In this document: positions 5,944 to 62,038 of the stretch, piece after piece
Layout: each line of letters begins with the position of its first letter
Numbering within the stretch: the stretch's first letter is position 1
Made by a program: the position numbers and the translations under genes
The notes under the pieces: model-generated
The model's input: only the letters and a program-made list of their open reading frames with translations
Databases searched by the model: none
Told to the model about the DNA's origin: nothing
NCBI GenBank assembly: GCA_911728435.2
Contig: OU452216.1
Coordinates: forward strand, 1,667,981-1,731,980
Source: Apoderus coryli
Lineage: Eukaryota; Arthropoda; Insecta; Coleoptera; Attelabidae
Direction: 5' to 3'
DNA length: 64,000 nucleotides

Positions 5944-6331
5944 GGTGACAACAAAATATTTCTGGCGACATCTAGTGTGATCAGTCAATATGGCCGGTGA
6001 AACACAGTTCACAAACGATGGCCGGACAAGAAGTAACAACTCCATTAAATCATATTGCCAACACTAGATACGCCCGAATTCCCTGGCGGGAGGCTTTATT
6101 TACGAATTGCTTCTTACATAAAGTAACAAGACTTTTAAATATGTTGGAAATTTGTTTCACATTACCATGCTTTCACCAGACGGGCCGTGGAAATTTGTGT
6201 CACACTGCCTGTCGATCACCACTGATGAATTGTGGATCAACGAAACGGCACGTCTGATGAAAGCATGGTAGTGTGAAACAAATTTCCAGCATAACTAAAA
6301 GTCTTGTTACTTTATGTACCAAGCAATTTGT
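5944..6331. mobile_element. Hammerhead-bearing short retroelement, family A, head-to-head copy
   Basis: Left part (about 5944-6188) is family A sequence on the minus strand and ends within the 3' half of a hammerhead motif; the right part (6189-6331) is on the plus strand with a full but damaged motif at 6217-6260. Both arms share the stretch around GCATGGTAGTGTGAAAC and the CTTGTTACTTTATGTA segment. The 12-mer AAATAAATAATA occurs on both sides (5932-5943 and 6332-6343) and may be the target duplication, although AT-richness and overlap with the element's own AAATAAA make this uncertain. It sits in the second intron of the PHF21-like gene. Confidence 0.6.
6217..6260 (+). ncRNA. Hammerhead ribozyme motif, family A, damaged
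   Basis: Core CTGATGA (6222-6228) and GAAA (6242-6245) are intact and the cleavage triplet is GTC ending at 6254. Stem II is ATTG with CAAC, losing the first G-C pair but keeping two U-A pairs and one G-C. Stem I CACCA with TGATG has one mismatch. Probably inactive. Confidence 0.65.
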
Positions 6332-6668
6332 AAATAAATAATACGGTCTCTCGTTTTATTTATGACACATCCTTTTATTAAAATTGGTGGACAACGCTAT
6401 TTGGAGATAGCTCTATATAAATGAACATAATATTTTGAAACCTAAGCTGGTCAAGATAATTTGGTGGAATTATAACTAATTCAAGCAAATCAAAGAATAA
6501 TAATTGATGAATATCTCATAGATATTTATCATAGATTGGCTGTTTAGTATATTAACTACCTGCGGTGTAGGATCGCTACTCAGTAAAGTAGGATTACAGG
6601 ATTAAATATTATGCTTGCCAGTCTCATTCTCCTCAATCTACATACATAGAAAAATCAAAGAAACTTAC

Positions 6669-7347
6669 CAGGTTGCTTGCTTATAACGCACATCTTACAA
6701 TCTGCCGAACTACTACCAGGTTCGATAATCAATCCACTCGGTAAATTCTGAAGGTTCGTGAATGACGTATACAATGATTTCGCGTTATCATTAACAGCAG
6801 TAGGACCTTCCAAAACACCCTCTGCTTTAACCATAGCGCTGTTACCGCTACCGTGTGTTTTTAGTGATCTAGATGGCTTTGCTGTCAAACTACTAGCTGG
6901 GGATGGAGGTGATTGAGATTTCTGACGTTTTCGTGTGGCTTGACGCTTATTTGCTGAGGAGATTGTACGCTTACGTTTCTGACATTTGTTAGAACTCACT
7001 AGTTGTGTATTCAAATCCCTTTCTTTTCGATACGCGTATTTTGGATTGGCGGTACTTCGACGTTTTCTCCCATCCCGTTTCTTTTCCATCTCCTTTTCGA
7101 TCTCCTTGAATTCCTCATGCGGGACCAGTCCAAGAAAACCCAGAAACTTCACCTGCGTAATATCGTGTGGCAACACTGGTTGACGCTCTGGTTGCGGTAT
7201 TGGAGTTATTGAATTTCGGCCACTTGCAATTTCAGTAGCACTTTTAACAATTTTAGCTTTTCCTTTTTTTTGGATGTTTCTGGATTTCGATCTTTCCTTC
7301 TTAATATCGTCATTGTCGGCTTCAACTTTGGATTTCTGATACAGCCC
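6669..7347 (-). CDS. PHF21A/BHC80-like protein, exon 2
   Basis: Acceptor acattttag precedes 7347 (enters in phase 0) and donor gtaagtttct follows 6669 (leaves in phase 1). The 679-base exon is open throughout and encodes residues 84-309: a basic, low-complexity region; the segment FLGFLGLVPHEEF (about 151-163) followed by an acidic/basic helix; the motif RKRRSTANPKY (about 177-187), which I recognise from PHF21A/BHC80; a lysine/arginine-rich nuclear-type stretch; a serine-rich linker; and the first zinc pair of the PHD finger, C300 and C303. Correct joining of the finger across the next intron supports the model. Nuclear chromatin protein by family membership. The 5' boundary comes from the splice consensus, since no methionine is needed here. 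Confidence 0.85.
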
Positions 7348-18233: not shown

Positions 18234-18470
18234 GGTAATGGCGGTCACTTAAGCTAAATTCAAAATTAAAAGCGAAAAAAAAAACAAAATGTTTATTCTC
18301 TTTGGTAAAAAAATACAACACAGTACTGCTTTATTCAAGTAAATACTAATAGGAACTTTAACTCTAATATTAATATTCAAAAACATTATTCAAAAAAAAA
18401 AAGTACTTTGACCGCGATTGTCACTCTTTCGGGTATTACCGGTCACACATGTGGCTATTGCCGGTTACAC
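18234..18470. promoter_or_regulatory. Left subterminal repeat cluster of the pogo element
   Basis: Contains GGTAATGGCGGTCAC, GACCGCGATTGTCAC, GTATTACCGGTCACAC and GCTATTGCCGGTTACAC, variants of the motif repeated at the right end. Inferred transposase-binding sites. Confidence 0.6.
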
Positions 18471-20414
18471 GCAATGATCACAAATATATCCTACTGGAGT
18501 ATCTTTTCCTGAACATTCGGCGTGTACCCATAGTCCACAAATACTACATCTATACCACAATTCATTGTCTGCACCATAGTCATCACAAATGGTACATAAT
18601 GTTAATACTTCATTATTTTCATTATCACTGCAGACATCACTCATTACAATATCAGATTCTGATGATGAGGATACTGTCGTTCTCGCATTTTTTGTCTTTT
18701 GTTTACTTAACATCTTGCTACTACATTTTTGGTTAATATCTTTTGTACAATCACTCTCTTCTGGTGAATTGAATACCTTTTTCTTAGCTTCTTGAATTCC
18801 TTTAAATTTATTCTTTTTGATTTTATCATTTTGCAATCTTGCTCTTTTCTTTTCTTCTTTTTTTTCCATCTCCTCTTTTAGTGGGGTGGAAGTTAAAACA
18901 GCAGCATGTTGTTTGGGTCGAGCTTTAGTATTTGCCCGTTTAATATGTTTTTTAGGTATTGGAAGTAGTTCGTCAACACTTAGGTTAAGGATAGAAGTAG
19001 ACTGTCTCGAGGTAGACGGAATGGCCAACAATTGCTCCACACTTTTTGTATCAGTGCTGGGCAGTATATGAACGGAAGGTTCATCAGTTAAAGCAATTGA
19101 CAACGGTTCACGGTTGGTCTCTTTCGAGAGGATATTAGTAATTCCAGAAAGACCTGGGGTAGATAATTCCATTGCAGAGTTAGCACTATCGATAACCACG
19201 AATTCGTCTTCTTCATTTAAAGCTTCGGCTGCTAGAAAATCTTCATCCTTGAAAACGAAAGGATCAATCGGATATATCCCGGTCGCCTTAAAACCTGCTT
19301 CAGCTTTTGCTATAGATGCTGCATGTGAAAACGCTTTTCGGAAAAGTGATGCGACTTCGTAAGGAGTAATTTTGTCTCCTGCATTAGATTTCATATAATT
19401 GTTACACTCACTTCTGTAGAATGTCTTTAGGGGTCCATAAAAGGAAACATCCAAAGGCTGTGTTCGGTGGGACGTGTGGGGTGGTATTGATAACATTATA
19501 ATGTGATTTTCTCGGCAATACTCATAGGCTGCAAGGGAAACATGGCTACTGTGGTTATCCAAAATTAATAAAATCTTGTCATCTACGGAGGGTTTTGAGA
19601 TCTTTACAAAATGCGCAAGCCATTGTACAAAAAGTTCCTATGTGATCCAGCCGTTTTTGGAACATTTGTATATAGCACCAGGGGGTCCATCTTTTTCCAG
19701 TAGGGGTGAATGTCGCTGTCGGGGTAAAATAAACATTGGAGGTATAAAATTACCGACTGCACTCATTGCACATACTGCCGTAATATTCCGACCTCTTTCC
19801 CAGCTAGTCATTGCTCCTACTCTTTTTTGGCCTTTTCTGGATAGAATTTTATCTGGTTCCTGCACTGTTGAAACACCCGTTTCATCCACATTGTAAATGT
19901 TTCTGGGCGAACAATTATATCTTTCCATAACTTCTTGCAACAGTTTAAAGAAGCGGTCAATTTCAACTTTATTGAATGCTGTTGCTCTGTTTAAGCTAGT
20001 AGCTTCTGCCTTACGGACTGATAGGTGATTTCGGTTTAGAAACCCTTTAAGCCACTCACGACCCGCCAGTTTTAAAGCCTTATTAAAGTTATGTTTTACA
20101 TTGTTAGTTTCGGCATATTCATAGGCCATGCGCCTAACTTCTTTTTCTGTGCATTCATAAAAAATAGAAGCTAGATATTTTATTCTATTTGCCATTTCCA
20201 GTTCTTGATCTTTAGTAAACACCGATTTTCTGCCCATAAGCGGAGTATTATAAACTTTTCTGTGCAGTCTTTCTTGTAATGTTGAAAAAGGAATTCCGCA
20301 ACGTTTTGCTGCCTGTCGAATGGAAAGTCCTTCTTCATGTAACTGTTTGGCTTTATTGAGTGATTCGACGGACCATTGTGTCTTTTTGGGTTTTCCAATT
20401 CTTTGTTTTGGCAT
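18465..20414 (-). pseudogene. Pogo/Tigger transposase with C-terminal PHD finger, one premature stop
   Basis: Begins MPKQRIGKPKKTQWSV at 20414 and would run 649 codons to 18465. Order: Psq-type helix-turn-helix (GLSIRQAAKRCGIPFSTLQE, about 30-50); CENP-B/Tc5-type second DNA-binding region (about 65-140); DDE_1 core with D in IYNVDETG, D in LLILDNHSSH and D in RTQPLDVSFYGPLK; a long serine/lysine-rich tail with KKHIKRANTKARPKQ; then a C4HC3 PHD finger (CTIC, CSIC, WVHAEC, CDHC) ending at the stop. The only break is TAG between GWIT and ELFVQW (near 19638), a one-base nonsense change in an otherwise open frame, so inactivation is recent. Active relatives elsewhere in the genome are likely. C-terminal PHD fusion is unusual compared with classic pogo proteins. 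Confidence 0.9.
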
Positions 20415-20444
20415 CTGAAAAAAAATAATACTTTAGCTTAAGCA

Positions 20445-29128: not shown

Positions 29129-29410
29129 TATCATTATGGTTAATCGATTTTTATTAAATCAATTTATTATTGTCTGATCACTTAATTTATGGCATTGGAC
29201 ACAATTTTATTCATGCTGACTCCATAATGAATGCTGACGACTTTAAAATTAGTAAAATACTATCTTCAGTCTTAGATTGTGTTAAACTCCCTCTTAAATC
29301 TTATTTTACTCCTGCTATATCAATCGACTTAGTATAATCGATGAGTAGAACCTTTGGCGTAGAACACTAAACTGACAATCGTTTTACCACTTCACCAAAA
29401 CACTTCTTTT

Positions 29411-29457
29411 AAATCTCGACGCGCGTTTCGCTAACAATGTTAGCATCCTCAGGAAAG
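29411..29457 (-). ncRNA. Hammerhead ribozyme motif, family B (left copy)
   Basis: Minus strand: stem I TTTC/GAGA (one G-U pair), CTGAGGA (fits CUGANGA), one extra T, stem II GCTAAC/GTTAGC with a three-base loop, GAAA, stem III CGCGCG (self-complementary), cleavage triplet GTC at 29420-29418. All core bases present. Short stem III suggests folding as a dimer, as described for Penelope and schistosome hammerheads. Confidence 0.75.
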
Positions 29458-29483
29458 AATTAAAACAACAACAAGTTTTAATT

Positions 29484-29528
29484 CTCTCCTGAGGATGCTA
29501 ACATTGTTAGCGAAACGCGCGTCGAGAT
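29484..29528 (+). ncRNA. Hammerhead ribozyme motif, family B (right copy)
   Basis: Stem I TCTC (29485-29488) with GAGA (29524-29527), core CTGAGGA (29489-29495), one extra T, stem II GCTAAC/GTTAGC, GAAA (29512-29515), CGCGCG, cleavage after TC at 29523. Perfect pairing in every stem; the extra base before stem II is the only departure from the minimal consensus. Confidence 0.78.
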
Positions 29529-29802
29529 TTAAAAGAAGTGTTTTGGTGAAGTGGTAAAACGATTGTCAATCGACTTAGTCCCAATATTAAGTAGAATGTC
29601 GAAGGAGAATGTCTTGTCAAAGCTTAGCGATAAAAATATGACATTTGGGAATCATATAGAAAATGTGGTCCAGAAGGCATGTAGAAATGTTAGGCTTTAT
29701 TTATAGAAATGCTGAAATCGTCAAGACTGAAACATGTTTCAGATCTATAATATATTACAGTCTTGTAGGATATAATAAAATAATGTATTTACATATTTCT
29801 AG

Positions 29803-30301: not shown

Positions 30302-31068
30302 GCTAGCGACTATGAATTAGTCCAACTCAGGGATTTCTGTTGTTTACCGGCTGTTGCAGGTGCGATGTACCACAGATGCGTTTGGATGCTCTCTCCTCGC
30401 ATCCACATGTCGTCGCGCTGCTCTTCAAAGACTTTATGGTCCTCGTAAATGGTATGCGTCCATATCGGTCGATCGTTCGCGATCTGCTCCCAGTTGTTCT
30501 TCACATCTAAGCCATCCTTGTACCTCTTTTGGTGTCCTTCCTGATTTCATGAGCCGACCTTAAGCTGTGAATAAAGTATTCTCTTCGGAAGGCCTTCCGT
30601 TGGCATGCGGATTACGTGACCAGTCCATGGCAGCTGGTGCCTGACAATCGCCTCAGTGCTAGTTGTTTCAGGTTATCATCGATACTTGTGTTCGCCGCGA
30701 GAATGCTGCCGGGGTAAGAGAAACTCTCTCAAATTCCATGGGCCTTTATAAGTATAGGCACGTGAAACTCGCGCTCGTGTTTAATATGATTTTTTTCGGT
30801 CGCATATTTGTATTTTGATCTGTGGTTTGCGCGAGTTTTGAGATGTAGTTGTGGACTTGATTTTGCGTATCTTTATTTACTCAAATGTGTTAAGTAACCT
30901 GTTGATTTTGTACTTTTAATTAGTGTATAAACTGTTAAATTCCCATATCATTCTGTATCTGTAGGTACTGTAGGTACTACATTTTTTTTGTATATTCCGT
31001 TTTTACAATAAATCGGCTTTGCATTGATTGATTTATATTTGGGACTTAGTGAGTTGCTACAAAATATT

Positions 31069-32136
31069 ATGTCCTGCAAGTTATGTGGCCAGAAATTGGG
31101 TAAGACCAATTTTCGTATACAGTGTGCTGGTGCTTGTCAGTTATGGGTACACTTGACATGTGCAGGATATAAAAAGGAGGATGTAACTGGACCTAAAAAG
31201 CATGATGTGTCCTGGATATGTAAACAATGTCAAGTGAAAGGAGGATCATCTGCTAATTGCCAGCTATCTGAGGATGATGACGAACCTTCTTTGATGTACA
31301 GAACTGACATACGGGATCCTTCTCCTAGCAGAAATAGAAGGAAATCTGCCCTCTTGTTTCCCAAGGACAAGACTCCTGTCGCTGCTCGTGTCGACCAGTG
31401 TGGCTCATGTGGTGTTCCGCAGGAGACTCAACTTGCTGCAATCAACAATCTGCAGGAGGTAATTGGACGTCTTTCTAAAAAGTTTGAAAGCTTTGAGGAA
31501 TCGCTTGATTTTCACAACCGTGGGGTGGAGGAAATACGTAGTACCTTAAAGCAGATTTTGGTGGAGAATAAATCATTAAAGAAAGAAAACGAACAATTGA
31601 AGAGAAGTGTAAATGCCTTGCAAACTGAAGTGAACGCTATCCAAAAGGTAATATCTAATCAGAAGGACGTTGAGAGGAGAAGTAATAACATAATCATTAG
31701 AGGATTGCATCAGGAAGGTTCTTCGGAAAAGGAGGAAGTGACAAAACTCCTCAGCGGTTTGGGTGTACCAACATCTGAGCAGAGTAAGCTAATTGTTAAA
31801 AAGCTTCCTGGTCGTTCGGGTACTAGGCCTTTACTTGTAACATTTGGTGATAGCAAAGCAAAGAGTAGTGTTATGGAAAAACGTAGGCGAATAGGTGATT
31901 TGAACTCAGTAGAGTTGCAATTGCCTGGACCAGGGCGAAGAATTTATATTAATGAAGATATGTCTAAGGAATCAAGGGATTTGTTTTACAGAGCGCGTCA
32001 GCTGAGGGAGTCCGGATACAAGTACGTTTGGTATAAAGATGGCCATATTTTCTGTCGGAAAAATGAAACGGCAAGAATAGCTAGACTGGAAAGCCTTGAG
32101 CAGATAGAAGTTCTGAAGGGTGATGTTAGTGAATAA
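31069..32136 (+). CDS. LINE ORF1 protein with PHD-like zinc finger and coiled coil
   Basis: ATG at 31069 (MSCKLCGQK) and an intact 355-codon frame. Residues 3-50 form a PHD-type finger: CKLC, CAGAC, WVHLTC, WICKQC. A heptad-rich coiled coil follows at about 125-205 (EEIRSTLKQILVENKSLKKE), then an RRM-like region (RRSNNIIIRGLHQEG, about 205-300) and a basic C-terminus (YKYVWYKDGHIFCRKNE). In CR1-group LINEs, ORF1 products are nucleic-acid chaperones that package the RNA. The reading frame is open while ORF2 is broken, so this copy cannot move by itself but could still make ORF1 protein if transcribed. Confidence 0.85.
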   Translation: MSCKLCGQKLGKTNFRIQCAGACQLWVHLTCAGYKKEDVTGPKKHDVSWICKQCQVKGGSSANCQLSEDDDEPSLMYRTDIRDPSPSRNRRKSALLFPKDKTPVAARVDQCGSCGVPQETQLAAINNLQEVIGRLSKKFESFEESLDFHNRGVEEIRSTLKQILVENKSLKKENEQLKRSVNALQTEVNAIQKVISNQKDVERRSNNIIIRGLHQEGSSEKEEVTKLLSGLGVPTSEQSKLIVKKLPGRSGTRPLLVTFGDSKAKSSVMEKRRRIGDLNSVELQLPGPGRRIYINEDMSKESRDLFYRARQLRESGYKYVWYKDGHIFCRKNETARIARLESLEQIEVLKGDVSE

Positions 32137-32248
32137 TTTGTGTCCTTTTAGTTTTATTGAATATGTATTGCTTCTTGGTTCATGTAATATTGTTTATTTA
32201 CATATTTAACTATATTTAAGTTTTGACAAATTAAAGTTTAGTTTCACA

Positions 32249-33396
32249 ATGGATGCATTTAATGTTGTTCATTTAAACATCAGATCATTATTGCCTAAGT
32301 TTGAACAATTTAAGTCTTATGTTTTAGATAATAGTTTCGACATTATTGGGCTCTCTGAGACTTGGCTAGACGAACGCACATTGGATGACTATCTGATTAT
32401 TAATGGCTACAATTTTGTACGACACGACCGTGGTCGCTGTCGAGGTGGTGGAGTATTGCTGTACGTAAGGAAGTCTATCAATTTTACTCAAGTTTTGAAT
32501 TTTGATAATGACCATGCTGAACAAATTTGGATTAAATTTAAATTCGGTATGGTTAAAAATATTTTGTGTTTGTTATACCGACCTCCAGGCTCAACGGGGA
32601 TGGGGGAGTTTTTTTCTGAATTTGAAGGAAATATTTGTAGAGGTCTAGTTGACTGTAATCAGTTAATATCTATGGGGGATTTTAACATTAATGTTTTAGA
32701 CATGCACTGTGGCTACTCCCGACGCGACGTTTTCTCTCTCTTCTTAGTGACTATGGCTTGACTCAGATTGTTGATGAGCCAACTAGGCATGGTCTAACTA
32801 CGGCATCGCTATTATATTTGATTATATGTTCTGATAATACATATGTTTCTTCTGTTGAAGTTGAGCATGATATTAATTTGTCTGACCATCTTCCGGTAAG
32901 ATGTGCATTCAGGACCAAACTTTCGAAGCCTAAGCCGTTTTCCTACACTTTTCGAGATTTTCGCTACTTTGACCAGTATCTTTTTTACAATGATTTAATG
33001 AATATGCCTTTCCATAATATTTTTTATATAAATAACATAGACATGAAGGTTGCATTATTCAATCAGTACCTCTTAGAAGTTTTCGATCGGTATGCTCCCT
33101 TAAAAACTGTAAGAATCTCCAAGAAGAAGGCTCCTTGGCTTTCACAAAATATTAAGGATTTGCAAAGGCAAAGGGAAAAAGCGTTAGCTAAATATAGAAG
33201 AAGTCGTTCTGTTGCGGATTGGGATGCGTACAAAAGAATAAGGAACTTGGTGTCATGTGAAGTAAGTAGTGCAAAGAGGCGATATTTGGAGAGTAGTATT
33301 CGTCGAAATAGCTCCAGCCAAAATTGGAAACTGTTGAGGGAGTTGGATATATACAGCAGGGACAAAACAACTATTCCATCTACCTTGGGTATGTAA
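32249..33396 (+). pseudogene. LINE ORF2, endonuclease part, one frameshift
   Basis: Starts MDAFNVVHLNIRSLLPKF at ATG 32249. Apurinic-type endonuclease motifs: HLNIRSL, IIGLSETWL, RGGGVLLYVRK, LLYRPPGS, ISMGDFNIN, then after a break near 32735-32760, LSDHLPVRCAF. The first frame ends in a stop at 32761 and the protein continues in the next frame from about 32740. The linker to the reverse transcriptase (KKKAPWLSQNIKDLQRQREK) follows to 33396. Confidence 0.85.
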
Positions 33397-33459
33397 TGTA
33401 GATAACATAAATGACTTTTTCCTTGATATATCTAATAGTTCCCCTGATCGCGAAACACT

Positions 33460-35058
33460 TTTTATTTATCGAATAGATTTGATTCTGACATTAGTTTCGA
33501 GTTCAGACTGGCGACTTTTGAAGACGTACTTAATGCTTTGCTCAAGATTAAGTCTAATGCTATTGGACATGATAAAATTAATGCCGACATGCTTGTGCGT
33601 TCCTGTCCTTTTATTGTTCCCATCATACTACATCTGGTCAATTTCTCTATAGAAACGAAGAACTTTCCATCGAGTTGGAGGCGAGCGAATGTTATTCCTA
33701 TCCCTAAGTGCAGGAATCCGTCGGCTTTGAAGGATCTAAGACCTATTAGTATACTTCCTGCTATCTCCAAGGTATATGAGAGAATTTTGCACGATCAAAT
33801 GAGGAAATACATTGATGAGAATGGCTTGCTCCCGGAAGTCCAGTCAGGTTTTCGTAAGGGACACAGTTGTTCAACGGCCTTGTTAAAGGTGTTGGATGAT
33901 GCTCTGCTTGCGGCTGATCATGGTCGGCTAACAGCCTTGGTACTGTTGGATTTTTCTAAAGCATTTGATCGGGTCGATCACGATTTAATGTTGGCGATAA
34001 TGTATTATCTTGGCTTTGGAGAGTCTGCTTTGGCATTGCTTGGTTCCTATCTTCATGATAGATATCAGGCTGTGGTTTTGGATGGCAAGGTCTCGCAGAG
34101 CAGGAGATTAAAGTGTGGTGTGCCTCAGGGTTCGATTCTTGGGCCAATGCTGTTCTCCTTGTATACTTCACAATTCGTAAAGAGATTGAGATATTGCTCA
34201 GCTCATTTATATGCTGACGATACTCAAGTATATATGTCCTTTAGGCCGACGGATATTGCTCAAAGTTGTGAGCATGTGAATTACGATTTGCGGAGTCTTG
34301 TGGAACTATCTAAGAATCACTGCCTTACTATAAATCCAGACAAGACACAGCTGTTGCTATTGGGAACGCATCAGGCCAGAATTGCTGCTTCCACCGTGCT
34401 GAAACTTAATCTGGATGGTGTTGATTTGAAATGTCAAACTGTTAAAAGCTTGGGAATATTAATTGACGCTGATTTGCGGTTTAGGGAACATGTAGGTGCC
34501 TGCATCAAAAAAGCGTTCTGCAACCTGAAGATGATATACAGTCAACGACTTTTATTGAACCAGTCCACCCGGAAAATGCTTTGTGATAGTCTGGTTCTAT
34601 CACACTTTAATTTTGGCGATGTCGTTTATGGGCCCTGCCTACTTGGTGCCGATGAGCATAGGATTCAGCTCATGCAGAATTCTTGTGTGCGTTTAATAAC
34701 TGGCATTCGAGCGAGGGATCGTGGAGTGAGCGCTAAGATTATTGAACTGAGATGGATGAGAATGGAACAGAGGAGACTTCTACATCTACTTGTTTTGTAC
34801 AATAAAATTGTGCATTCGAAGACTCCTCTATACTTATTCAATAAAATTGAGTATGGAGGTCGTGGTCATTCTATATATACTCGCAATAGTCACGTTATTA
34901 CTCCGCCACTACATAGCACTGCATTATTTGAGAGGTCGTTTAGTTACAGTATCTCACGATTGTACAACGCATTGCCTGTTGAAGTGGCGTGTTTGTCTGG
35001 TCAACGTTTCGGGGCCTCAGTTCGAGACTTAATTATTAATAATAGTATCACATTTTAG
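33460..35058 (+). pseudogene. LINE ORF2, reverse transcriptase part
   Basis: Continuous frame from about 33460 to the stop at 35058; the frame differs from the endonuclease part, with a break between 33396 and 33460. Reverse transcriptase motifs in order: LRPISILPAISKVYERIL, SGFRKGHSC, ALVLLDFSKAFDRVDH, CGVPQGSILGPMLFSLY, HLYADDTQVYMS (catalytic YADD) and SLGILIDADLRFREHVG. The C-terminal region (LYNALPVEV) is typical of CR1/Jockey-group LINEs. Confidence 0.9.
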
Positions 35059-38410: not shown

Positions 38411-39562
38411 GTAAGATTCATATGGCTTCATAAAAAACATTACTACTACTACTGCTGCTACTACTGAGGAGACGAAAGGAAGTTGAAACCGTATCGACAG
38501 AGCATATCTTCCCGAGAAGACGTGGGTATTAAAGTTTAATATTAGAAAACAAAATTGGAAAAAATTTCTTATGAAACAGAGGGTTATTGATCTGATTTCG
38601 ATCTTTCTTGTTTTAATCAGTATGACAAACTAGCAATAGAGCTTTGGTGTTTAGATTGTTTGTATTTCACAAAAGACACTAACGAACTTAGGCTTGTTTT
38701 GCCTTCTCAGAGAGCCATCTTTCTAATATTCCATAATTCGTTCTATTGAAATCTCGATATCTTTCAACACTGAAGAGATATCAAAAATGTCTTCAAATTG
38801 TTTTTTTTTTCTATAAAACACTAAAATGTCACATAGGTACCTACTTAGCAAAAAAATTACGAAATCTCGATAGCCTTTAACTTCGAAAAAAAAATGAGTA
38901 TTTTGTTTTACAGCTTAGCTTTAGTTTTACAGCTATAGCTAAAAATCTAATCATTTGTCTTTAATACCCCAACTACGCATGGCTCTATCTCTTCTGGTTA
39001 TTAAAAGATTTGTCTTTGACATGAAGGCAAAAATCGGTCCGGTGCGTTTCATTTGTCCAGCAGTTTATTTAGAAAATTGCCAGTTCTCAAAAATTTTCTT
39101 ATGTTACCCCTGTGACACATCATTGGACTCAAGACGATTGCAGTAACTCAAAAGTGTCCTAAAAATAGAGGTTGCAATTTGAAACAAACATGACTTAGAT
39201 GGATCAAATACGTAGCCTACAAAATTGCAAAACATAAATCAAAACTGATGTGTCTCGGCTTTTCTTTTAAAATTGTGCCTATTTGAAAATAATAGCTCGT
39301 TCCGTTACTTTACGGACACCCTGTATAGGGAGTTACATGAAAGGATTGTCAGATCAGTGCACCTGTCTAGGTCAGAGGGAGTGTAAGCACTAAATACATT
39401 TGACAAGATAGTATCTCGTGCTAGTATAAGCTCTTCGTTGGGTTGACTGATGAGTTGTGGATCAACGAAACGGAGGTGGCTCACTTTGCACTTCAAAAAT
39501 ATAGACTATAGTAATATTTTACGTAATTTTGGTCATTTATGTTTTCAAAATTGTATTTTCAG
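38411..39562 (+). other. Intron 3
   Basis: Contains a lone ACGGACACCCTGTATAGG transposon end at about 39312 and the family A hammerhead remnant at 39447-39480; otherwise nothing is seen. Confidence 0.5.
39447..39480 (+). ncRNA. Hammerhead ribozyme remnant, family A
   Basis: CTGATGA (39447-39453), stem II GTTG/CAAC perfectly paired around TGGAT, GAAA (39467-39470), then CGGAGGTGG: the stem III/GTC segment is shortened and stem I is lost. Upstream CGTGCTAGTATAAGCTCT is shared with family A sequence at about 61485 and 49712. Confidence 0.6.
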
Positions 39563-42084: not shown

Positions 42085-42750
42085 GGGGTTATAATAATAA
42101 TAATAATAATTGCTTTATTGCTCAACAGAAAATCCATTTAGAGAGCAATCTTAAAAAATTACTTAATCTTAATAATAACAATACAAATAAACCGAAACAG
42201 AAAGAAAGAAACATCATAGGTAAATTCAACTTAAATGTGCATTCAAAACACCTAAAACAGTAATTAAGTGATCCAAAAAAATATCACTCTCATCGCTTAT
42301 AAAGTTATATGTCTGACACATTGTGTAGACAGGCGACTTCATCAACAAATTGGTCCTAGGGCAGTCGTTATAAAATAAATTAGAAGATCTCGAATTTTGC
42401 CTTGGTACCAAAAAATACAACTTTTGCAAGAGTTCAGCGCAATCAATCTTACTATGCAATATATTAAAAAGGAATTTTACTGCATGAATTTTTCGTCTTA
42501 ATTCTAAACTTTGTATTTGACATCTTGTTAACAAGATGTCATACTCTATTCCTCTTTCTGGATATGATCCATCAGTTTTGAAACATAAGTATTTTAAGAA
42601 CTTACGCTGAACTCTCTCAACAGAAACATTGTAACAGTTATAATATGGAAACCATATTAAAGAGCAGTATTCCAGCTTTGACCTGACATAAGCATAGTAT
42701 AAGGTTTTTATTGTACCCATATTCTCAAAAGATCTGGAATTTCTCACAAT
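42085..42750 (-). pseudogene. 5'-truncated LINE copy (C-terminus of reverse transcriptase and tail)
   Basis: Minus-strand frame 42747-42226: MGTIKTLYYAYVRSKLEYCS then LIWFPYYNCY, VQRKFLKYLCFKTDGSYP, LELRRKIHAVKFLFNILHSK. This is the C-terminal region of a CR1/Jockey-type reverse transcriptase. The 3' end reads CTGTTGAGCAATAAAGC followed by (ATT)n, identical to the tail of the copy at 46314-47275. Confidence 0.8.
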
Positions 42751-42753
42751 GTA

Positions 42754-42774
42754 GCCATAATAATAATAATAATA
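42754..42774. repeat. (TAA)n tract at the 5' border of the Dong-type LINE
   Basis: TAATAATAATAATAATAAT-type run directly before the LINE start; the matching run is at 46314-46335. Confidence 0.8.
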
Positions 42775-43212
42775 ATGGCGAGGAAGGCAAGGGAGGCAGC
42801 TTCCTCGTCGGGTACAACTCGAATATGCTACTGCTACCCAAACTCAGAGAAAAAGAACAAATCATCTCTCCGACAGAGCTTCCGAGGCCGAGGGTGACCA
42901 TACCGGAGAAATCCAAAATGGACCTAAGAGCCAAACATCAGTTGATACGGAAAATGCACCGGAAAATAGAAAGAGAAAATATTGGACTAGAGAGGAAATG
43001 AGAGAGGGGTTGTGGTGCTTTTCGTATAAAAGAGCTACTTCTGTCGATAACTATAAAGAAGTGTATGAACTATGGAGATCTAGAAACCCTAACACCAGAT
43101 TAAATATAGAAGAGAGAAAAAACTACCCAATCAGAAAAATTCAAGAGCAAGAGGAGAACAAGGAAAAACAAGACAAGAAGACGATAGTTTACGAGACACA
43201 GAACAGAGAAAT

Positions 43213-45244
43213 GTGGGCACAGAACAAGTACAAATACGAAATGTAAATGCGCACAATGAACAAACAACAAATAACTATGATGCGAATCACGAACAAGACC
43301 TCGTTGAAGATCAGGATAGCCTGGACCTAAAAATAGAAATAAGAGCAGAATTTGAAGATATTCGGTTAAAATCTTTGTGTGATAGAGATAAGCTGCCTAA
43401 AATTCCTATGTATTTTATGGGAAAAATAAATGTTATAAACAAAGTAGTTGAAGATATCCTACAAGAAGAATCACTTAATATAACCGACCTGAATAACCTT
43501 ATCTATGCCGCGGCCATAACATTCTATAACAAATACTTGCGATCAAAATATACAAATAAGTCAAAAACAAAGCGCCACAGGGAGCCCCCTTGGAAATTCC
43601 GACTGCAGAACAAACTCAACAATACGAGAAAAACTTTGTCAAGATTAACAGACATTAAAAGAAGAGGATTACATTTTCAACATAACAACATATTAAAAAT
43701 AGAGAACATAACGAACAGAACTGATCTAAACCAACGGATTGAAGAACTTAAACAAAAAATCACAGCCACTTCTGCTAGGATACGAAGGATAGACAACTCG
43801 CAAAAGCAATACTTGCAAAACCAAATGTATAAAAATATTGCAAACAGCGGAAGAATAATTGATAATAACAAAATTCCAACAAAGATTGATCTCGAGCACT
43901 TTTGGGGAGGAATATTAGAGGATGAAACCACAATAAAAATGCAAAATGGATAAAACGACATAACCAACAAAGAAAGATTATATCCCCAATGCAATGGGAA
44001 CCAATTGCTCTCGGGGAATTACAAAGCAGCTTAAAAAATTGTCAGGACTGGAAAGCGCCAGGACCAAACTTTTGGTTGAAAAAACTTACTAGCTCTCACG
44101 AACATTTGACAAGAGTGTACAATAACCTTACAGAGAATCATAACTTAATACCGGACTGGCTGACCTCGGAAAAGACTATATTACTCCCCAAAAACGAAGA
44201 CACAGAAAATGCGAAAAACTACAGACCGGTAACATGTCTTAACACGATGTACAAAAACCTAACGTCAATAATAACAAAAAGATTATATAAACATATTGAG
44301 ATCAACAAACTGTTACCTCCCGAATAAAAAGGATGTCGTCAGAGAGTTCAGGGATGTAAGGACCAAATACTTCTTTCAAATATGATTTCTCTCGACTGTA
44401 AAACGAAGAAAAAGAATCTAAGTGTGGCCTGGATCGATTACCAAAAGTGCCTCACAGCTGGATAATCGAGGCTCTGGATATGATAGGAATACATCCCATT
44501 GCACGAGAATTACTAATACAAACAATGAAAATGTGGAAAACAAAAATAGTCATAAACACACCACTAAAAACGATTGAGACACGAACAATACATATAAAAA
44601 AGGGAATCTATCAGGGAGACTCCTTGTCACCCCTGCTGTTTTGTGTTGCGCTGATTCCGTTATCTAACGAAATAAGAGAGTCCAAATTTGGGTACCTATT
44701 GCAAGGGCTAACGAACAAAGTCCATCACCTTCTCTTTATGGACGATTTAAAACTTTTTGGAAAGAACGAAACTGAACTTAATACTCTTTTAAAAATTGTC
44801 GAGAAATTTAGCAGAGATATCAATATGCAGTTTGGCTTGGAGAAATGTGCTAGAATTCAATTCCAGCGTGGCAAAATAACAAAAACTGCCAATCAAACAC
44901 CAATACTGATTCGCTCATTAGAAGAGAGTGATACGTACAAATATTTAGGTATGAACGAAAGAGAAGGTATAGATCAAGAGCTAATGAAAGAAAAAGTGTC
45001 GAAGGAATATTTCAAAAGGTTAAGGAAAATATTAGAAACGCATTTATCTTCAAAGAACAAGGCTGAAACTATCAACAGCCTTGCAATTCCTTTGCTGCAA
45101 TATGGGTTTGGATTGAGTACATGGAAAGTAGAAGAACTTCGCAATTTGGATAGGAAAACTAGAAAACCAAATTCAATTATCACCATCCAAGATCTGACGT
45201 TGATAGAATATACATCCCTAGAAACGAAGGAGGGGGAGGACTAA
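43213..45244 (+). pseudogene. Dong/R4-type reverse transcriptase, frameshifted
   Basis: Segments in order: LKSLCDRDKLPKIPMYFMGK, NDW-type fingers region (43213-43953); GELQSSLKNCQDWKAPGPNF and DWLTSEKTILLPKNEDTENA then KNYRPVTCLNTMYKNLTSI (43989-44327); then AWIDYQKCLTAGWIIEAL, KKGIYQGDSLSPLLFCVALI, HHLLFMDDLKLFGKNE (44400-45244). The catalytic box is FMDD rather than YADD; R4-group enzymes vary here. Breaks near 43950, 44330 and 44430. Confidence 0.85.
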
Positions 45245-45276
45245 CCCAGATAGAAGGTGCATAGAAAACGGCCATT

Positions 45277-46243
45277 GTGTCCCTTAATAAATACTTGCAC
45301 AACGAAAACTTAGACAAATATCAGAAAATAATACAAAAGTTTGATGAAGCTCGGCCCACAGGAAAATCAATCTCAAAAACAGCGGAAAAGATTATGAAGG
45401 AACTACAGCTAGAGAATGAGCCCACCATCGCAACACAACTGATTAAAAATAAATTACAACAAATATGAATTGAAAAATGGAAATCTAAAAATATGCATGG
45501 ACAACACAAACGAGAAACAGAAAAAGATTACGTAAATAAAAGAATAACATGGGAATGGCTACGAAGGGGACAACTTAAGGTAGAAACCGAGGGGCTGCTT
45601 GTTGCTGCACAAGATCAATCACTAGCTACAAACTATATCAAAAGAAATATATTCAGAAGCACGCAGGACGCTACTTGTAGATTGTGCAAAGAATTCGATG
45701 AAACGGTAGAACATATAACATCAGGATGTCCAATATTAGCAGCTCGAGAATATATTAACAGGCACAATAAAGTAGCAACGCAATTACACTACAATATTTG
45801 CAAAAGTCTAAACGTGCCCATGGAGACAAATTTATGGTATAAACATATTCCAAAAGCGGTTATGACATCTACCGATGAACCAACAACAATATTATGGGAT
45901 CAACCTATAACAACTGACAGAACAATTAGCAGCAACATACCGGATATTACAATCAAAACAAAAGATTTGTGCCAAATCATAGACGTGTCCATACCGGCTG
46001 ACAGGAATATATAGTAAAAAAAGAAGCGGAAAAAATCAATAAATACAGGGATCTTGAAATTGAGATTAAAAGAATGTGGAAGCTAAAAACTAGAATTGTG
46101 CCTGTTGTTGTGGGAGCCACTGGATCGGTCTCCTCTTCATTTGCGAAACACCTATCGGAAATACCTGGCAATCATTCACCCTACGACTTGCAAAAAACGA
46201 CAGTATTGGGAACTGCTCATATACTACGTAAAGTACTTACCTA
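45277..46243 (+). pseudogene. Dong/R4-type LINE C-terminus: CCHC finger and restriction-like endonuclease
   Basis: After a spacer helix (ENLDKYQKIIQKFDEARP), the frame 45493-46014 carries the finger CRLCKEFDETVEHITSGC and the endonuclease entry PDITIKTKDLCQIIDVSIPA (PD..D-type active site). A frame change near 46014 is followed by AEKINKYRDLEIEIKRMW and VPVVVGATGSVSSS, ending at TAA 46241-46243. This region cuts target DNA in R2/R4 LINEs. Confidence 0.85.
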
Positions 46244-46313
46244 ACGGCTACTTACCCTTGGAAGTTGGATAATTTCCCGGTAAATAGTTTCACACCAGTG
46301 TAAAACACTGAGA

Positions 46314-47275
46314 AAATAATAATAATAATAATGCTTTATTGCTCAACAGTATTACCATTTACAGAGCAACAATATCTCAAATAATCATAATGTGCATACA
46401 CATACATAATCAAACACTTGCGTCACAATCACTGAGAAATACATACCCAACTGAATATAATAGCGCCTTAATAAAGGTAAATAAAGACTCACACTTTTAT
46501 GCTTAAAAATAATAATAATAATAATCAATTAAATCAAATTCACACTCACAATGCATGCCTTCTCAAGATTGGTACAGCAGCCGAAACAATACCACCAAGT
46601 GAATCATGATTGATATCAGAAACACTAGATATGCGGTTAAATACATCACACATATTAAATACAGGAGATCTACAATACAAGACCTAGATGCACTCAATTA
46701 TGTTATTTATATGTATATCGAATGAAACAAGCTTATCAAAGGTCACACCAAGATCCTTAATGGACTCTGGACGATTTAAAATCGTCTCACCAATCGTATA
46801 CTCGAAATGAATGGCTGATTTTTTTTTGGTATATGACATACCTTTACACCTGGAAGAGTTCAAGTTCAGTCTGTTTTCCTCACACCAGCATTGAACCAAA
46901 TCCATATCACGCTGCAAACGATTACAATCGTCAAAATTATTAACGGAATTAAATATTTTCATATCGTCCGCAAAGAGCATTCTCTGACAATTCAGTAGTC
47001 CGGCTAAGTCATTTATAAAAATTAAAAACAATAATGGGCCCAGATTCGACCCTTGCGGAACACCAGATGACATATGGTATCTTGACGATTTATATCCATT
47101 ATGGAGAACATATTGGGATCTATTAGTGATATAGGAATGGATTAGCGAAACAGATCCAGCTCCAAGCCCAAACACAGTAAGCTAGTTCAACAGAACCACG
47201 TGATTTATTCTGTCAAATGCTTTGGCAAAGTCCGTGTAAATCACATCGACCTGCCCTCCTTCATTGACAGTTATT
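46314..47275 (-). pseudogene. LINE copy with reverse-transcriptase core, tail split by the Dong-type element
   Basis: Minus strand from 47275: DVIYTDFAKAFDRINHVVL, then SGVPQGSNLGPLLFLIFIND, MLFADDMKIFNSVNN (catalytic ADD), KDLGVTFDKLVSFDIHIN; a stop after HVVLLN. After a deletion the 3' end reads CTGTTGAGCAATAAAGC plus (ATT)n at 46335-46314. Same family as 42085-42750. Confidence 0.8.
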
Positions 47276-49500: not shown

Positions 49501-49554
49501 AAAGTTTATAATTATTTGGTCACAAAAAATGTTTATCTAAATTAAGTATTATAT

Positions 49555-49932
49555 AAGAATTGCTTGTTACATAAAGCAACAAGACTTTAAGTTATGTTGG
49601 AAATTTATTTCACACTACCATGCTTCCACCAGACGGCCGTTTCGTCGATCCACGACTCATCAGTGGTGATCGGCAGGCAGTGTGACCTAAATTTCCAACA
49701 TTTACAGAGAGCTTATACTAGCACGAGAATTAATTGAGAGAAAGATGTTTGTGGCGACACCTAGCGTGAACAGGCAATATGCCGGGTGAAACACAGTTCA
49801 CTAACGATGGCCGGATAAGAAGTAACAACTCCATTATATCCTATTGCCAACACTAGATGCGCCCGAATCCCCTAGCAGGGAGGCTTTATTTAAGAATTGC
49901 TTGTTACATAAAGCAACAAGACTTTATTAGTT
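49555..49932 (-). mobile_element. Retrozyme-like element, family A, ~337-bp unit in 1.1 tandem copies
   Basis: Flanked by AGTATTATAT at 49545-49554 and 49933-49942. The segment GAATTGCTTGTTACATAAAG occurs at 49557 and again at 49894, a direct repeat with a 337-bp step, so the element is a little more than one unit of a tandem. It contains one complete hammerhead at 49626-49668. No coding capacity. The uninterrupted opposite arm of the palindrome (about 50255-50280, ATATAATACTTC) shows the empty site. This matches the layout of retrozymes and other hammerhead retroelements copied from circular or multimeric RNA. Confidence 0.8.
49626..49668 (-). ncRNA. Canonical type I hammerhead ribozyme
   Basis: Minus strand, in order: stem I CACCA (49668-49664); core CTGATGA (49663-49657); stem II GTCG, loop TGGAT, CGAC; core GAAA (49643-49640); stem III CGGCCG (self-complementary); TC with cleavage predicted after 49632; stem I TGGTG. 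All invariant bases are present and all stems pair without mismatch, with the preferred GTC triplet and no extra base before stem II. The short stem III suggests activity as a dimer or in multimeric transcripts. Confidence 0.88.
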
Positions 49933-50540
49933 AGTATTATATGTTAAGGCTTTACAAATTTTAAAAGATCAAAACTCATATTATTCATAATACAAGTCTT
50001 TATAATACTCATAATGTTCTTTTTGAAAATCATTGAAAAACTTTAAATTTCGTCAAAATTATTGTTAACCGATTGCACTCTCACACAGCAAATTATTTAT
50101 TATTATTATTATTATTGCTGTGTGAGAGTGCAATCCGTTAACAATAATTTTGACGAAATTTAAAGTTTTTCAATGATTTACAAAAAGAAAATTATTATTA
50201 TCATAAAGACTTATATTATGAATAATATGAGTTTTGATCTTTTAAAATTTTTAATGCCTAAACATATAATACTTCATTTTAACTAAAAATTTATCACCTT
50301 TATACTGAGCCTAATTTTATTAAAATCAGACCATCCATAAGAAAGTTAGAAAACTTTTTACAAACCAACATTCTTCGACTCACTATTGCACTATTTATTT
50401 AAGATAGGAAAAAAGGTTTTTATGAAAAAGTTTTAGAATTATAGTTAGATCATTCTCAGTAAGTTTAACACTTACGTAATATAAGTATATTTTTAAGTAA
50501 ACGGTGTTTTTCAATTTAGAGTTAGATATACGCTCTCTAG

Positions 50541-51132: not shown

Positions 51133-51214
51133 GTAAGTGGCTGTGTTTACTTGCTGTACCAGCGATTTATATTATATGAAAAACTTTTATTATTGGGGCT
51201 CGTTTAACAAAACA

Positions 51215-51460
51215 AGACGCTTATAATCGATCAATAGAAGCTTTGGCGTAGAACAATAAACTAAAACACGTTTTACCACTTCACCAAAACACTTTTATAT
51301 TCTCGACGCGCGTTTCGCTAACAATGTTAAAATCCTCAGGGGCGAATTCAAACTAAACAGCGTCCATCTTATATACTAGGTATACCAGGGCGACGAGCTC
51401 TAATATTGGTCGCCTCGCTACCAATGAGAGTGCGGTACGTCACAATATATTAAAGAACAC
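51215..51460 (-). repeat. Penelope-type terminal repeat, family B fragment
   Basis: Shares the extension ATAATCGAT..TTTGGCGTAGAAC and the arm with the insertion at 29334-29565, then continues into text matching 60280-60410 in the opposite direction (CAGGGCGAC, GTCGCCTCGCTAC). Confidence 0.7.
51301..51343 (-). ncRNA. Hammerhead motif, family B, stems damaged
   Basis: CTGAGGA (51339-51333), GAAA, CGCGCG and GTC are intact, but stem II reads TTTAAC/GTTAGC and stem I loses its pairing partner (CCCC against GAGA). Probably weak or inactive. Confidence 0.6.
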
Positions 51461-60078: not shown

Positions 60079-60417
60079 TACCAAAAACAATGTGACATAA
60101 AATAAATACACAATATTTATTTCAAAAACTAGTTTCATCTGAACCTCATTCCCAAGAAAATCGACCAATTAAAAAAATAGATATTTGGAAACTTGTGAAA
60201 GTTTAGAAATTATTAAAAATAATTCAAAAGCACTAAACAAAAATAAGAGACCAATAGTATTTTGCATTCTTTAGTTTGTAAGTAATCAATATATTGTGAC
60301 GTATGTACCGCCCTCTCAATTGTAGCGAGGCGACCAATTACAGCGCCTCGCCCTGGTATGTAAGTACCTAGTATACCTATAAGGTGGACGGTGTTTAGTG
60401 TTAGTTTAGTTTTAATT

Positions 60418-60461
60418 ATCTCATGAGGATGCTAACAGTGTGAGCGAAACGCGCATCGAGA
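60418..60461 (+). ncRNA. Hammerhead motif in the Penelope 3' repeat, family B, mutated
   Basis: TCTC, then ATGAGGA where CTGAGGA is expected, stem II GCTAAC/GTGAGC with one mismatch, GAAA, CGCGCA, TC, GAGA. It matches the motifs at 29411 and 29484 apart from these changes. Confidence 0.6.
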
Positions 60462-60536
60462 ATAAAAAAGTGTTTTGGTGAAGTGGTAAAACGTGTTTTA
60501 GTTTAACGCTAGAAATTGTCTGTCAGACCTTTTACT

Positions 60537-60579
60537 ATCACCAGACTGCGTTTCGTTGATTCACGACTCATGGGTGGTG
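60537..60579 (-). ncRNA. Hammerhead ribozyme motif, family A, core mutated
   Basis: Minus strand: CACCA, CCCATGA (for CTGATGA), GTCG/CAAC with one C-A mismatch, GAAA, CGCAG, TC, TGGTG. Stem I is intact. Confidence 0.6.
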
Positions 60580-61040
60580 ATCGGTCAGGAGTTGACAGAC
60601 AAACACTCGATTTAGATGTGGTATGTATCCCCAGATGGATACGCGTTGTAAAATAATGTGTTTGGCTACATCTACTAGTTAACTGGTGAATAGCCATTCA
60701 CTATAACGGGTGGACAGGGAGCCACTTACCCCATTAGGTCCCATTACCCACACAATAGTCGCGTTCATATTCCCCTGTAGTTATTTGGGCTTGTTTAACA
60801 AAACCTATTTTTGGACATTTGCTAATTGCGCCGGCAGATATTTACACCCCAAACCGATCTGAACTCCTCAAGCTAGTGGAAAGTGCAGGCTGCAGTAAAA
60901 CCGGGGACTTTTGTCGAACGGACTCTTTCAAAAAGATAATAATAATTATGAATTTGCTCTATTTGGTCATATAACATGAGATTAAAGTTGGCTTTCGAAT
61001 ATCTATGTAGTTTACCTGATATTTCAAATATGTATTTCAG
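60580..61040 (+). other. End of intron 6
   Basis: To about 60785 this is a divergent continuation of family A (CCCATTAGGTCCCATTACCC, compare the CAACTCCATTAAATCC segment at 61345). The rest shows nothing. Confidence 0.45.
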
Positions 61041-61319: not shown

Positions 61320-61990
61320 ATTATTAGCCAACCGATAGAGGTAACAACTCCATTAAATCCTATTGGCAACACTAGAAATGCCGAATTGCACAACGGAAGG
61401 CTTTATTGACGAATAAGAGCTTATACTGGCACTAGATACCAAATGACCACAAGATGTCATCACATACATCTTGGTGTCGTTCGTGCTAGTATAAGCTCTA
61501 TTCGTAAATGTTGGAAATTTGAATCACATTGCCTGCGGATTAGTGATATGCAACTTGGATACTAACACCTATCGGTATCGAATGGATACTTGAGTTCAAT
61601 GTATCTGATACCTACTTTGGATATGGATACTTATGACAAAAAGAACATAAACATTACCATATTTAAAGAAAAAATATCAAAAATAACTATAATTCTAGTT
61701 TCAGCCTAAGAAACATTTTGCAGATCCTTTGTAGGAAAGTACATTTTGCTTTATTTGTTTCAATTAATTTAACACGCAACCACACTGCACTTTTCTTATG
61801 TTGCAAAGAACAATTCATCGTTAATTGAAAATATAGCGTGCCTGACTCCAATTCTATTATACTTTTTGCACTACTGTCAATCACCACTGATGAGTTGTTG
61901 TGGATCATCGAAACGGCTCGTCTGGTGGGAGCATGGTAGTGTGAAGCAAATTTCCAACATAACTTAAAGTCTTGTTACATTATGTAACAA
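61320..61990. repeat. Family A hammerhead repeat mosaic in intron 7
   Basis: Contains AACAACTCCATTAAATCCTA at about 61349 (minus-oriented family A), a palindrome around GCTTATACTGGCACTAG / CGTGCTAGTATAAGCTCT (61430-61505), and a plus-oriented 3' part after the hammerhead at 61882 ending with TTATGTAACAAGCAATTCG. Confidence 0.6.
61882..61928 (+). ncRNA. Hammerhead ribozyme motif, family A, nearly intact
   Basis: CACCA (61882-61886), CTGATGA (61887-61893), a lengthened stem II GTTG...CATC with one mismatch, GAAA (61910-61913), CGGCTCG (two pairs, three-base loop), TC, TGGTGG. Core, triplet and stem I are intact; stem II is the weak point. Confidence 0.68.
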
Positions 61991-62038
61991 GCAATTCGTA
62001 TCTATTATTACTTATGAATATATTTTTATTAATTTCAG

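Follow-up and report, generated by a model that had tools for sequence, protein, structure and literature searches.

The window analysed here, a stretch of 64,000 nucleotides from the beetle Apoderus coryli, contains at 49555–49932 an element made up of one 337-bp unit and a repeat of its first 41 bp (378 bp in total, approximately 1.12 units; Table 1). The original prediction had described a non-coding element that repeats its own start after 337 bp and carries one ribozyme per unit, and this description was borne out: the longest open frame spans 48 amino acids, a direct repeat (49549–49589 and 49886–49926) recurs at a spacing of 337 with 98% identity, and a single type I hammerhead was identified in the unit. 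The target duplication that had also been proposed was found as the same 10-bp sequence, AGTATTATAT, on both sides, and the limits of the element are exact. As had likewise been claimed, the element was inserted into an arm of an older palindrome and the other arm provides an empty site: the arms at 49933–50091 and 50115–50273 are 94% complementary, and when the insert was removed and one duplication kept, the sequence aligned with the other arm without a break through AAGTATTATATGTT. The hammerhead is encoded on the minus strand, and the 3′ end of the RNA therefore lies at 49555. The GC content of the unit is 43.6%.

Table 1. Features of the focal locus and related pieces elsewhere in the window (window coordinates)
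Feature	Position	Strand	Remarks
Focal retrozyme copy	49555..49932	-	378 bp, one-armed; RNA direction 49932 -> 49555
Left target duplication	49545..49554		AGTATTATAT, 10 bp
Right target duplication	49933..49942		AGTATTATAT, 10 bp
Terminal repeat, first copy	49555..49589	-	49555 = RNA 3′ end
Terminal repeat, second copy	49892..49926	-	337 bp beyond first copy
Type I hammerhead ribozyme	49626..49669	-	RF00163; cleavage predicted from alignment between 49632 and 49631
Long hairpin around ribozyme	49594..49701	-	Stem I arms 49594-49619 and 49676-49701
Start site 2, unit positions ~155-164	49728..49737	-	Window position by arithmetic
Remainder of older palindrome	49943..50292		Right arm carries uninterrupted site
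Older copy A	5944..6331	+	Antisense arm then sense arm; ribozyme core at 6222
Older copy CB	61327..62000	+	Two-armed; 10-bp duplication TCTATTATTA
Copy D, diverged second subfamily	60516..60815	-	Degenerate hammerhead; limits approximate
Fragment E	39414..39473	+	Partial hammerhead
Head-to-head PLE end piece	29334..29565		Exact 14-bp duplication TCAATCGACTTAGT

When the whole window was searched with Rfam, the focal hammerhead matched RF00163 with 32.3 bits (E = 4e-4), slightly below the gathering score of 34 for this family, and at gathering score no family passed in the search for the focal hammerhead. RF00163 scored above the cut-off in L002 (37.4 bits) and L003 (34.4 bits). The hairpin surrounding the ribozyme gave a folding z of −7.8. 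Units were numbered along the RNA, with position 1 directly after GCAATTCTT and the ribozyme cut after position 260.

Metazoan non-LTR retrozymes (Cervera and de la Pena 2020, PMC7229834) are described as small (170–400) non-coding tandem repeats with one type I hammerhead per unit, low GC content, and target duplications of more than 4 bp. The element shares with them a tandem non-coding unit (here 337 bp), the type I hammerhead, a GC content below 50%, and a duplication longer than 4 bp, and it is a metazoan retrozyme of this known kind. Plant LTR retrozymes (PMC4918200), which are hammerhead RNA elements thought to move through circular RNA, differ from it in their LTR-like repeats, 4-bp duplications, and type III ribozyme, whereas the family described here has a type I ribozyme, no LTR, and duplications of 12–14 bp. 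Scans of a viral collection for the unit gave no matches with two DNA patterns, and a third pattern matched one contig over 14 bases, which was set aside as chance.

Four further pieces of the family, designated A, CB, D, and E, are located in the window. Copy A is flanked by the 12-bp duplication AAATAAATAATA and has one end at each of the two fixed sites that are described below for the genomic copies. Copy CB has one end at site 1 and the other at neither fixed site. Reading by eye showed an interruption of this copy at 61541–61873, a hAT-like insert that ends in short TAGTG motifs and is flanked by diverged duplications of 8 bp (CTGCGGAT and CTGTCAAT). A duplication apparent inside copy CB was dropped after this nested insert had been recognized. 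A second-subfamily locus elsewhere in the genome, L074, has 78% identity to copy D over 161 nt. Its arms are inverted, and AAC precedes its 13-bp duplication, AATTAGATTTATG; its ends match both start sites, as judged by eye on this single second-subfamily locus.

The 428-Mb assembly (129 contigs) was searched with the 378-bp element as query, which resulted in at least 187 blast matches. Forty regions were fetched, of which 37 (L036–L072) are young copies of the focal family; L073, a composite, and L074 and L075, which belong to the second subfamily, were left out of the tally of edges. Thirty of the 37 regions are head-to-head double arrays, in which an antisense arm precedes a sense arm and the RNA 3′ ends face outward; the other seven contain a single orientation only. 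The arrangement in 1.1 tandem copies that had been predicted thus holds for the focal copy but not as the typical form of the family. Nor do the copies elsewhere turn out to be a longer coding element, the observation that was to count against the original prediction: in the fetched regions, they repeat the 337-bp unit, with arms that reach 8.7 units and many short copies of 0.3–2 units per arm. Among 27 of the 30 two-armed loci, together with copy A, arms span 21–2945 bp and 42 of 56 exceed one unit.

The outer ends of these arrays are fixed. Of the 30 two-armed copies, 27 have an outer end at site 1 (positions 1–8 of the unit) and the other at site 2 (positions 150–164), and none has two site-2 ends. 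The exceptions are L040, which has two site-1 ends but whose flanks are themselves an inverted repeat, and L049 and L070, each with one outer end away from both sites. Exact duplications of 12–14 bp flank 26 of the 27 rule-following copies, the duplication of L063 being 6 bp only, and when ends were mismatched across loci, 0 of 150 pairings scored as high as these 26 true ones. Each of the seven one-armed copies ends at a site (five at site 1, two at site 2), with no convincing duplication found for the one-armed L056, L068, and L069. The focal copy would accordingly be a one-armed product of insertion, with 49555 as the probable reverse-transcription start, site 1; site 2, which forms an outer end in its two-armed sister copies, is unused in it. 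In a ring, sites 1 and 2 are predicted to be unpaired (0.81 and 0.96, versus 0.40 overall; 28 of 40 distinct units) and fall in A/U-rich patches predicted to be single-stranded.

L072 was rejected as an independent insertion, since it has 2.6 kb in common with the focal locus at 97% and is thus a duplicate of that locus; it was kept out of the motif counts. The palindrome and the retrozyme (window 49526–50292) lie in the stretch that is duplicated, as L072, on the same contig. L036 and L038 are inserted at the same point of one repeated sequence (99.8% identity over 2061 bp) and have the same 14-bp duplication but opposite array orientations. These represent either two hits on one palindromic site or a rearrangement; a palindromic target would allow the opposite orientations.

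For the motif counts, targets were oriented with site 1 on the right, and L038 (target shared with L036) and L063 (6-bp duplication) were left out. The trinucleotide AAC directly precedes the duplication at 15 of 29 loci, against a background of 0.024. At 9 of 29, GTT begins at the far edge or up to 3 nt inside it (background 0.060), and the target resembles a loosely palindromic AAC^N12^GTT. The duplications are 90% A+T. Microhomology between the target and the RNA beyond the start site averages 2.9 nt at site 1 (0.9 when shuffled; 28 loci, L051 left out) and 3.0 nt at site 2 (1.35 when shuffled; 25 loci, WIN_A and one-armed copies left out).

A candidate source of the insertion machinery is resident in the same genome. 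Of 1260 candidate GIY-YIG matches, 150 were scored, with open frames of up to 774 amino acids. An RVT_1 domain was found in L100 and a GIY-YIG domain in L077, which are different copies; the closest database relative has both domains, and among named relatives of the reverse transcriptase, the five best are from beetles. Judged by this domain content and by the structure of its ends, the resident element is probably a Penelope-like element (PLE). Eighteen pairs of matches lying a few kb apart in minus-then-plus order were chosen by eye, so that the head-to-head form of these pairs is selected rather than measured, and the edges of 13 were examined. In 12 of the 13, the arms end 17–24 nt (site a) and 53–57 nt (site b) beyond a common anchor; in L076, the remaining pair, one arm ends at site a and the other is shortened. 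Exact duplications of 12–14 bp flank every one of the 13 pairs. The dinucleotide AC before or GT after the duplication is present at 10 of 26 PLE boundaries (background 0.034, P = 7e-9) and at 21 of 58 retrozyme boundaries (background 0.045, P = 3e-14). The two elements differ in the A+T content of their duplications (75% for the PLE versus 90% for the retrozyme), in microhomology with the RNA (approximately 1 nt versus approximately 3 nt; L076 left out), and in the spacing of the start sites (approximately 35 nt versus approximately half a unit). The PLE end contains a hammerhead-like motif with a weak Rfam score (18.3 bits, E = 1.3).

Comparison of the focal unit with 25 PLE loci and three PLE pieces from the window gave no common sequence at an E of 1, and a 3′ tail common to the focal unit and the PLE was rejected because 610 of 1000 shuffles reach its score. 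Besides the PLE piece listed in Table 1, two more PLE end fragments are located in the window at 51171–51460 (−) and 60288–60505 (+). The former continues past the positions at which PLE ends normally lie and reaches GTCTTGTTTTGTTAAACGAGC, a sequence that likewise terminates subfamily D retrozymes. A stretch of 21 nt is common to subfamily D and one window PLE fragment (20 of 21 positions, 0 of 1000 shuffles); GTCTTGTTTTGTTAAACGAGC is either shared PLE sequence or a fusion.

Studies of PLEs in other animals provide the frame for interpreting these ends. On AT-rich DNA, the purified lizard PLE protein (PAc, PMC11167929) cleaves both strands and extends them, with synthesis beginning at two neighboring positions inside the RNA; the stretch between these positions constitutes the genomic "tail." No difference in start site between the strands is reported for this protein, and it can dispense with cut RNA ends. 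Rotifer PLEs have inverted head-to-head ends, an optional tail, and duplications that are mostly 8–10 bp (PMC3846280), as compared with 12–14 bp here. PLEs and the retrozyme are alike in their head-to-head ends, two start sites, AT-rich targets, short duplications, and hammerhead-like motif, but PLEs encode a reverse transcriptase and an endonuclease and the retrozyme encodes neither. Unlike the lizard PLE as described in PMC11167929, each retrozyme insertion takes one of each site.

Because the retrozyme and the resident PLE share two end sites, duplications of 12–14 bp, and AC/GT boundaries, we favor, at a probability of roughly 80%, the reading that a non-autonomous retrozyme RNA, either a 337-nt ring or an uncut multimer, was inserted by the resident PLE machinery. 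The retrozyme thus works like a PLE at insertion yet is not a PLE, having no open frame of more than 48 amino acids. Counted against this reading were the missing sequence match between the focal unit and the PLE, the differences in A+T content and microhomology, the contrast with the lizard PLE in the use of start sites, the choice of PLE pairs by their head-to-head form, and the exceptions to the rules (L040, L049, L070 with its two divergent units, L063, L056/L068/L069, and the 10-bp duplication of the focal copy). In the proposed mechanism, transcripts would self-cleave at the hammerhead and the monomers would be ligated into rings, by analogy with known retrozymes. The PLE protein, with its reverse transcriptase and GIY-YIG endonuclease, would then cut both strands at AT-rich sites with a stagger of 12–14 nt and a boundary preference of AC^/^GT, the cut positions being deduced from the duplications. 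The two 3′ ends would prime on one RNA, at site 1 (~337/1) and site 2 (~158), as the outer ends suggest; each cDNA would travel a variable distance round the ring, and the two cDNA ends would join in the middle to give a head-to-head double array. Priming by a single end would leave a one-armed copy, of which the focal 1.12-unit element would be an example.

The nature of the template was examined by comparing 98 full units from 36 loci (L040, L073–L075, and the window copies were left out), of which 97 keep the ribozyme core. The mean number of differences is 0.53 between units within one arm of a locus (104 pairs) and 0.32 between units of opposite arms of a locus (119 pairs, 93 identical), as compared with 5.66 between loci (4530 pairs, 233 identical); L070 is exceptional in that two of its units differ by 12. 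When one opposite-arm pair was taken from each of 12 loci, the mean was 0.5 versus 4.9 for shuffled pairs, and 0 of 10,000 shuffles reached the observed mean. By arithmetic, the longest arms that a monomer cut by its ribozyme could support are 77 nt for site 1 and approximately 235 nt for site 2. The site-1 arms are at least 151 nt in all 28 two-armed loci measured, and the site-2 arms exceed 235 nt in 22 of the 28. The inner junctions are spread almost evenly over the unit (KS p = 0.21); 4 of 56 fall within 6 nt of the ribozyme cut, where 2.2 would be expected, and the inner ends of paired arms are mostly at differing unit positions. Within a locus, the longer one arm is, the longer the other tends to be (Spearman 0.47, p = 0.012, 28 two-armed loci), as if the two syntheses were coupled. 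Arms beyond the ceiling for a cut monomer and near-uniform inner junctions fit a ring or an uncut multimer, and the claim of the original prediction that a circular or multimeric RNA was reverse transcribed is strongly supported, with all 28 site-1 arms beyond the 77-nt limit.

Between these two templates, the ring is favored by the intact ribozyme core, by the differing inner ends, and by the expression of known metazoan retrozymes as rings (PMC7229834). We propose, with moderate confidence, that one ring bridges both 3′ overhangs, each DNA end priming at a different start site, about half a ring apart, and both syntheses proceeding by rolling circle; retrozymes would in that case be parasites of PLEs. 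The same PLE-type two-sided insertion could instead have copied a linear template, namely a long multimer that was transcribed from an array already present and left uncut. Tandem arrays are available as possible sources of such multimers and the lizard PLE uses unprocessed RNA in vitro (PMC11167929), but with the core kept in nearly all units multimers should be cut, arms extend to 8.7 units, and paired inner ends usually differ rather than meeting at one RNA 5′ end; we regard this template as rather unlikely.

In L1-type twin priming, the second priming point is not fixed. Ordinary target-primed insertion by an L1-type LINE, with occasional twin priming, would provide for target duplications and for one-armed and 5′-inverted copies; a LINE is present in the window, and the 15-bp duplications of sea anemone repeats were likened to those of LINEs in a 2016 paper (PMC4918200). 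This origin is nevertheless highly improbable for the family described here, as the second end is fixed in 27 of the 30 two-armed copies, the inverted form makes up 30 of the 37 regions, the copy ends examined have no poly(A) tail, and the resident PLE is a better match in its two sites, duplications, and boundaries. If arrays had instead grown after insertion through unequal exchange and gene conversion, the identity of units would be uninformative on the template. Near-identity of units within a locus would be expected from such growth, but such units must have been inserted first to account for the constant outer ends, the exact duplications, and the numerous short copies, and the identity extends across opposite arms, leaving this explanation with very little probability. 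Snap-back of a self-primed cDNA, with the second arm copied from the first, would yield inverted arms and has been proposed for the inverted ends of rotifer PLEs (PMC3846280), but it predicts like outer ends, which occur only in L040, where the flanks are also inverted, and it was rejected for the retrozyme family, with a probability close to nil, because the outer ends are unlike in 27 of 30 copies.

Insertion of retrozyme RNA by PLE machinery bears on a matter that has so far been a guess, namely the route of animal retrozymes into DNA and the enzyme that they use. No partner enzyme for metazoan retrozymes is identified in the available text of PMC7229834; PLEs were named as candidate partners in papers from 2020, and according to a 2020 review there is no conserved motif from which the partner could be deduced. 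The present genome offers dozens of young insertions with readable ends and a PLE with the same signature, and the two-site signature makes the partner question answerable by one in vitro assay. The two-handed reaction could also account for the inverted ends of PLEs, which have been a puzzle: if a single ring does bridge the two overhangs, the head-to-head ends and the "tail" of PLEs would reflect the same reaction. Head-to-head double arrays and two fixed outer ends set the family apart from metazoan retrozymes as presented in PMC7229834. Neither head-to-head retrozyme arrays nor paired start sites are described in the available portions of PMC7229834, PMC7761336, PMC11167929, PMC3846280, PMC4918200, and PMC8490949; priority of the description is not certain, with supplements and most subscription papers lying outside the search.

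The window contains several other features. LINE-type frames at 31012–35058 encode a PHD together with a Baculo_FP-like domain, an endonuclease/exonuclease/phosphatase domain, and RVT_1. Further RVT_1 frames are located at 44402–45244 (+) and 46684–47181 (−), within a region (42226–47181) in which the strand is strongly A-rich around 42–46 kb. A DDE_1 transposase with a Psq-type helix-turn-helix is encoded at 18465–20432 (−), and a weak DDE_3 match, below its cut-off, was found at 1834–2313 (−). A frame at 6658–7347 (−) resembles PHD finger 21A and has two database matches, from the beetles Cylas and Asbolus.
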